This document shows positions 38,721-40,238 of a stretch of 56,133 nucleotides of DNA, one piece after another; positions within the stretch are counted from its first letter, which is position 1; every line of letters begins with the position of its first letter. The notes under the pieces are model-generated. The model did no database searches, was not told the origin of the DNA, and saw only the letters and a list, made by a program, of their open reading frames with translations. Origin of the DNA: Acidobacteriota bacterium (GTDB lineage Bacteria > Acidobacteriota > Thermoanaerobaculia > Thermoanaerobaculales > Thermoanaerobaculaceae); the NCBI GenBank assembly GCA_004298115.1, contig SCRJ01000164.1, positions 1-56,133 of the forward strand, read 5' to 3'. The position numbers and the translations under genes were made by a program.

Positions 38721-40238
38721 ATGACGACGGTACGACGATCGGGGGCGTGGCTCGTTGCGGCTCTGGCGCTGACCGGGGCGGCGGCCACCGCCGTCGCGCA
38801 GGAGGCGCCCCAGGAAGGTCCGGCGCCGCGCCTCGTGGTGTTCGAGGCGTTCACGCGCTACACGTGACCGTCGTGCCAGGCCGCCGGTCCGGCGGTCGAC
38901 GCCCTCGCCCGGCAGTACGAGGGTCGCGCGGTCTTCATCGAGCAGAACGTGGACGCGCCGACCGGCAACCGCATCAGCCGGTTCTGGGCCGCGTTCAACG
39001 GCCAAACGGCGTACCTGCCGCTCGTGATCGTGGACTCCGGGCATCGCATCTCGACGGGAGACCTGGGGAACTTCACGACGGTCCTGCAGACGCTCGTCGA
39101 CGCCGAGCTGGCCCGCCCGCCAAAGGCGGAGATCGAGGCGTATGCGCGCCAGGTCGGGACCCGGATGCGGGTGTACGTGCGGCTGCACAACACCTCCGGC
39201 GTCACGCTCTCCGCCGCTGCGAACCAGGCGGCGCTGCACGCGCTCGTGTACGAGGACGCGCACGTGGGCGTGACGGGACGGATCATCCGGGCCGCCCCGT
39301 GGTTCGACCTCGTGCCCCCGCTCGCGCCCGACGGCGTCGCCAGCGTCACCCTCGACACCGACGCCCTCTCCGGCGTCGCGTGGACCGCGCTCCACACGGC
39401 CGTGGTCGCGGACTACGTCCCGGCCTCGGGACGGGCGTTCGACATGCTGCAGGGCGCGGCCGCGCGGCCAGCCGGCCTGACGCTCGAGCCGTCGGCGCTC
39501 GTCGTCGGCGTGGACTCGGGTCAGCCCGCCGACCGCACCGTGCAAGCCACGCTCGCGGGGCCCTACACGCTGAGTTGGACGGCGGTTGCCGACGTGCCGT
39601 GGCTCGTCATCACGCCGGACGCGGCGGCGATCGCGACGCGGCCGGCCGTCACCGTGGCTGCCGGCGGGTTGGCCCAGGGCTCGCAGGAGGGGCACGTCAC
39701 GTTCTCCGCCACCAGCGCGGACGGGATGGCGTTCACCCGGTTCCTCACGGTGACCGCGACCCTCGGGCCGCGGCGGCTGCGCGCCGTCGCCGCGCCGGTG
39801 AACCCCGGTTCTCCGATCGACGTGCCGATCGTGATGTCCGCGCTCGGGGACGAGCACGAGGTGAGCTTTTCTCTCGCGTTCGAGCCCGCCATGCTGGGCG
39901 CGCCCGTGGTGGCGGCCGGCAGCGCCGCCGCGGCGGCCGCGCTGGTGGTGGACCGTTCCGAGGCCTCGTCCGGCCGCCTCGGAATCACGCTCACCCTCCC
40001 CGACGGGCAGACGTTCCCCGCGGGCGACGACGAGCTCGCGGTCGTGACGTTCGCGACCGCCGCGACGGTCCCGCGGGCGACCGCCGCCGTGGCGTTCACC
40101 GATCGGCCCGTGGCGCGGACCATCAGCGACCTTCTCGGGACCCCGCTCACGGCCGCGGTCGCGGGCGCCAGGCTGGTTTTCCCGGATGCGAGCGTGGCGC
40201 ACATCGCCCGCCGCCGCCTCCGGCGCTCCGGAGAATGA
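38721..40238 (+). CDS. Probable selenoprotein: thioredoxin-like (Omp28-type) with BACON- and cohesin-like domains
   Basis: A continuous 505-residue frame exists only if TGA 38865-38867 is read as selenocysteine at residue 49. Residues 1-26 are a signal peptide. Residues about 38-140 look like a thioredoxin fold: LVVFEAFTRYT, then U49-P-S-C52, matching the place of the CxxC in Omp28-like proteins (FT-x-WCPPC). A beta domain follows (about 140-245), then a BACON-like region (about 255-350) and a cohesin-like region (about 351-490; VSFSLAFEP, GRLGITLTLPDG). GAGGTG precedes the ATG. The 456 sense codons after the TGA stay open, unlike a decayed gene. The protein should be exported, where the selenol could act in thiol redox chemistry. 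Selenocysteine machinery is not in this window. Confidence 0.8.
38865..38897 (+). promoter_or_regulatory. Candidate bacterial SECIS element after in-frame TGA
   Basis: After TGA (38865-38867) the RNA can form a stem of CCGCC (38881-38885) with GGCGG (38891-38895), extended by a G-T wobble and a G-C pair at 38879-38880 and 38896-38897, closing a GGTCC loop. The loop starts 18 nt after the TGA. In E. coli fdhF the GGTC loop motif also starts 18 nt after UGA. The bacterial consensus asks for a G in the first two loop bases at 16-37 nt, which is met. The bulged U of fdhF is absent. Confidence 0.75.

Follow-up and report, generated by a model that had tools for sequence, protein, structure and literature searches.

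A Putatively Exported, Omp28-Like Thioredoxin-Fold Protein of Acidobacteriota Interrupted by a UGA Codon as a Probable Selenoprotein

The DNA analysed here (hereafter, the window) is a stretch of 56,133 nucleotides from an Acidobacteriota bacterium, and its positions 38721–40238, on the plus strand, hold a gene of 505 codons plus a TGA stop. The gene begins with ATG behind a GAGGTG ribosome-binding site, and when TGA is read as selenocysteine (Sec, U), the translation gives 505 residues, with the TGA at 38865–38867 as the sole in-frame stop before the terminal codon, a second UGA at 40236. This agrees with the initial annotation, which had described a single frame interrupted only at 38865, had noted the GAGGTG, and had suggested that normal gene calling would miss the gene. 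Indeed, the standard bacterial code (table 11) yields in the same frame only an open reading frame of 429 amino acids from GTG 38949 to 40238, without the signal peptide and the active site. The GAGGTG is likewise found in six orthologues from the same genus, and the start region is shared among the orthologues. It should be mentioned that the window is very GC-rich and that overlapping antisense and shifted open reading frames of more than 900 amino acids run across it; because long overlapping frames are common in such sequence, no weight was placed on the openness of the frame. It is the homologues, the codon statistics, and the RNA structure that lift the case above chance. The tyrS gene ends 16 nt upstream, and transhydrogenase-type genes lie downstream. 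Of the loci that were compared, a large part of them with short flanks, only one (L020) shows this order again, and we therefore claim no functional link. No plasmid match was found.

The product opens with a signal-peptide-like N terminus (residues 1–27, MTTVRR...AVAQ, 38721–38801). The signal peptide claimed by the initial annotation thus stands as a feature recognized by eye, and similar hydrophobic N termini are seen in the orthologues. It is followed by a thioredoxin-fold domain (approximately residues 37–134, 38829–39122), in which the UGA codes for residue 49 of the motif T-U-P-S-C (U49-P-S-C52), the first Cys position of the thioredoxin C-x-x-C, and in which P100 of YLPL stands at the usual place of the cis-Pro. 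When the family profile was compared with thioredoxins of known structure, positions 34–80 were matched (best 6zom, E 2.5e-4), and in the family alignment R37, E42, C52, and P100 are conserved columns, the last two invariant. In other words, a significant profile match, the active-site motif, and the cis-Pro are all present, and the thioredoxin fold and the retained Cys52 of the initial annotation are both borne out. AlphaFold2 models (of the full protein and of residues 34–250, with a four-sequence input) reached a pLDDT of only 36–37 and were not used, so that the fold assignment rests on sequence profiles.

Behind the thioredoxin domain lies an Omp28-type beta domain (approximately residues 135–250, 39123–39470, with DMLQ near its end), supported by profile–profile alignment. 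The comparison with Omp28-like proteins by hhalign gave a probability of 98% and an E-value of 2.2e-13 (for a single comparison) over 245 columns, spanning query positions 32–289, first the thioredoxin domain and then the beta domain; the relation to Omp28 proposed from the sequence is thereby upheld. The BACON and cohesin-like domains named in the same annotation fared unequally. The BACON-like domain (approximately residues 253–345, 39477–39755) is supported in the family, where PF19190 matches 13 of 15 members (best E 1.3e-7) and passes its 25-bit cut-off in L026 and L034; the window protein itself scores 15.5 bits, below that cut-off, and the family alignment passes through this domain. 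The cohesin-like C-terminal domain (approximately residues 351–489, 39771–40187) is detected with PF00963 in only three of the 15 members (best E 4.8e-6, up to 0.05), and the window protein has no PF00963 match. The cohesin-like part is also seen again in numerous large frames from related genomes. The protein ends in an Arg-rich tail (RRRLRR, 40190–40235), whose pattern, approximately R-R-x-L-x-R, persists in the majority of the family with or without the cohesin-like domain (L024–L031, L035, L037, and L038); no known sorting signal was identified in this tail.

Close relatives with 79, 71, and 65% identity come from Acidobacteria metagenome assemblies, and 11 of the 17 genomes of the GTDB family hold a match to the protein. 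Besides the window gene, 21 homologous genes or gene fragments carry TGA at this site, with identities reaching down to approximately 37% and below. Orthologues of between 79 and 37% identity are among them, and so are members of a second family of the order and of another class; TGA is present at the site in all seven orthologues of the same genus as well as in G005 (L030), G003 (L033), and G002 (L035). Four homologues (L032, L034, L055, and L085), nested among the Sec forms, have Cys instead, and seven that form one clade (L031, L037, L038, and L047–L050) have Gly and keep the resolving Cys. One of the latter, L031, was considered as a TGA form and rejected, as its TGA precedes its start and its site is Gly. 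The comparison of homologues at position 49, which the initial annotation had proposed as a check, therefore finds TGA, Cys, or Gly and not random codons. A tree of 31 domains requires four changes for the Sec label (mean of 9.2 when shuffled), three for the Cys label, and one for the Gly label. Sec and Cys have thus replaced one another on more than one occasion, a usual pattern in families of selenoproteins, and the Gly forms, with only the resolving Cys left, may have lost redox cycling.

A class-wide search added L051–L055 from a sister family, four of them with Sec and one with Cys, in which the thioredoxin module follows, in the same frame, an extra N-terminal region. The N-terminal domain of these proteins (YVPA..N..G.N.T.WRTDL) resembles the C-terminal domain of L032–L034, so that similar parts stand in another order. 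The same search also contributed the Gly forms L047–L050 and short matches to further Omp28-like subfamilies, in which U again occupies the site (L081–L084). Two of these loci, L082 (G117:C118) and L083 (G118:C12), contain several neighbouring Omp28-like genes, two per locus with an in-frame TGA at the UxxC, and in L083 a CGFC form adjoins the TGA-bearing genes; on their sequences, they would be clusters of exported thioredoxin-like selenoproteins. Outside the class, one genome has a further Sec form with the same hairpin (L130, see below), and L070 (G269), likewise from outside it, is a more distant Omp28-like protein with FTSTN-U-PNC, where a possible hairpin is placed differently.

The genome encodes the full set of factors for selenocysteine. 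SelA, SelB with its winged-helix domain, SelD (above its cut-off, in the Cys form), and a tRNA-Sec with the anticodon TCA (UCA), detected by two programs, are all present, so that selA, selB, selC, and selD, a search for which the initial annotation had put forward, were each found. SelA occurs in 14 of the 17 genomes of the family and in all 12 of those of good quality. On the minus strand of L126 (G000:C58:48700-50100) lies a peroxiredoxin whose peroxidatic position (DFTFVU) is an in-frame TGA, followed 17 nt behind the UGA by a hairpin with a GGUC loop, of the same SECIS type as that described below; judged by these features, it is the genome's second selenoprotein and one of a known kind. 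A search of the genome for formate dehydrogenase gave no match over the cut-off, and the matches contained no internal TGA. In L010:2-1150, at the start of G000:C137, approximately 27 residues at the very edge of the contig precede SelD in-frame and, by eye, resemble the C-terminal end of a cysteine desulfurase of the NifS type. Pfam matched only the SelD part; a NifS–SelD fusion is possible.

Immediately behind the UGA, positions 38879–38897 form a SECIS hairpin with a stem of 8 bp (38879–38886 with 38890–38897) and the triloop GUC (38887–38889). The spacing from the UGA to the loop is 19 nt, and the local hairpin has −14.8 kcal/mol. The published model of the bacterial SECIS calls for a loop of 3–9 nt, a stem of 4–16 bp, a G among the first two nucleotides of the loop, a distance of 16–37 nt from the UGA, and a minimum free energy (MFE) of at most −7.5 (PMC13188914), and the hairpin agrees with it throughout. 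Over 20 sites, 97.5% of the cells are paired, with changes on both sides at four pairs (12 cells), and the covariation score was reached by none of 500 shuffles. In ten Cys or Gly homologues, the pairing of the same region is 68.8%, and the Gly form L031 retains most of the hairpin. For this particular sequence, the MFE fold of the 45 nt from the UGA is a different hairpin, at −19.5 kcal/mol against −14.8 kcal/mol for the SECIS stem taken by itself, and a ribosome standing at the UGA would be expected to melt this competing fold. A covariance model of the site found a strong match in the genome here only; elsewhere in the family it gave matches below 35 bits, and those inspected lacked a convincing UxxC frame. 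Rfam at its gathering thresholds reported nothing in the window.

Purifying selection acts on the coding sequence both before and after the internal TGA. Downstream of it, dN/dS is approximately 0.3–0.5, for most pairs a constraint no weaker than upstream; the downstream part is constrained as protein, which accords with the initial annotation's view that the later frame shows no decay. Among seven orthologues, 69 four-fold columns are invariant in amino acid, and only seven of these have identical codons. Four of the seven are the consecutive codons +6 to +9 (A-G-P-A), which lie beneath the hairpin and form the longest frozen run.

Could the TGA at 38865 simply be a nonsense mutation or a sequencing error, and the gene a pseudogene or a misread Cys protein? 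A single change from TGC or TGT would suffice, and errors do occur in metagenome assemblies, the source of all the named relatives. On the contrary, the same TGA is found in many separately assembled genomes, a covarying hairpin follows it, and the sequence downstream is under constraint, so that we regard this explanation as exceedingly improbable. Only marginally better placed, and still very unlikely, is the view that the UGA is read through generally or as another amino acid, such as Trp. The frame is plainly translated beyond the TGA, as this view also requires; the objections are that homologues replace the UGA by Cys or Gly and not by Trp, that the SECIS hairpin is tied to the UGA forms, that the gene itself ends in TGA, and that the genome has the full Sec machinery together with the Sec-peroxiredoxin.

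It might also be argued that translation starts at GTG 38949, giving the 429-residue product without the thioredoxin active site, and that the UGA merely ends a short leader. This is after all the table-11 reading frame, yet the GTG falls inside the thioredoxin domain, and the 48 codons before the TGA encode the signal peptide and the first strand, which are conserved in the orthologues. The relatives of the sister family speak against a short leader as well, since they have nearly 300 open codons before the TGA and their Cys form, L055, continues without a stop. We consider such a start to have very little chance of being correct.

The gene that seems broken by a stop is thus almost certainly intact, with its UGA read as selenocysteine, a judgement drawn from sequence comparison. 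The initial annotation had put forward an exported U-x-x-C thioredoxin-like selenoprotein, and the machinery, the conserved UGA, the covarying SECIS, and the purifying selection observed here, together with the thioredoxin/Omp28 homology, all point the same way; we place the probability that the gene encodes an exported selenoprotein with Sec at residue 49, acting as outlined here, at approximately 0.95. SelB, carrying the Sec-tRNA(UCA), would bind the hairpin behind the UGA at 38865 and insert Sec as residue 49, and translation would continue from there to the second UGA at 40236. The signal peptide would export the product, in which U49 could carry out an extracytoplasmic attack on a disulfide, thiol, or peroxide, in whichever redox direction, and C52 would resolve the intermediate. 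Docking, whether to a partner, to a substrate, or to the cell surface, is the probable role of the beta domains of Omp28, BACON, and cohesin-like type.

On a wider scale, we would give even odds to the view that the Acidobacteriota possess an undescribed extracytoplasmic redox system based on selenium. It would consist of a broad and varied set of exported Omp28-like selenoproteins, with several members in some genomes and a shuffling of the domain order, whose active site would have switched among Sec, Cys, and Gly around an unchanged resolving Cys. The existence of one active site in natural Sec, Cys, and Gly variants offers a test of the benefit of selenium outside the cytoplasm, the architecture adds an exported multi-domain type to the list of selenoproteins, and the lineage-specific SECIS model (R1) can be used for finding further members. 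Automatic annotation cuts such genes at the UGA, and the signal peptide and the active site are therefore lost.

An inventory of prokaryotic selenoproteins from 2026 distinguishes 119 families or subfamilies and gives, under the model NF045500, a hypothetical protein GOS_C with UxxC (PMC13188914, Table 1). The NCBIfam name of this model is Omp28-related selenoprotein, and because it is already on record, the idea of a Sec-containing Omp28 protein is not new; among the papers available to the search, none joined selenoprotein and Omp28. The NF045500 proteins are like the window protein in having an Omp28-type thioredoxin domain with Sec as the first residue of UxxC, and differ from it in that BACON and cohesin-like domains follow in the latter. 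The model does not match the window protein, the best-scoring relative of that protein reaches 13.5 bits against a cut-off of 200 bits, and the cut-off was reached in none of 396 Acidobacteriota genomes. The family is not yet in curated protein libraries, and the window protein represents a real and apparently undescribed branch of exported Omp28-like selenoproteins. The model of the Omp28 family outer membrane lipoproteins (NF033782) matches weakly around the active site, far below its cut-off of 150 bits; Omp28-like relatives share the two-domain order of the window protein in the profile–profile alignment, whereas the description of NF033782 includes no Sec. The Sec-peroxiredoxin (TxxU) of this genome relies on a SECIS hairpin of the same kind and belongs to a different family with a different motif. 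Finally, the Sec-thioredoxins and thiol:disulfide interchange selenoproteins (UxxC; PMC13188914, Table 1) share the thioredoxin fold and the chemistry proposed here, but they are other sequence families, and the window protein differs from them in its predicted export and in its several added beta domains.
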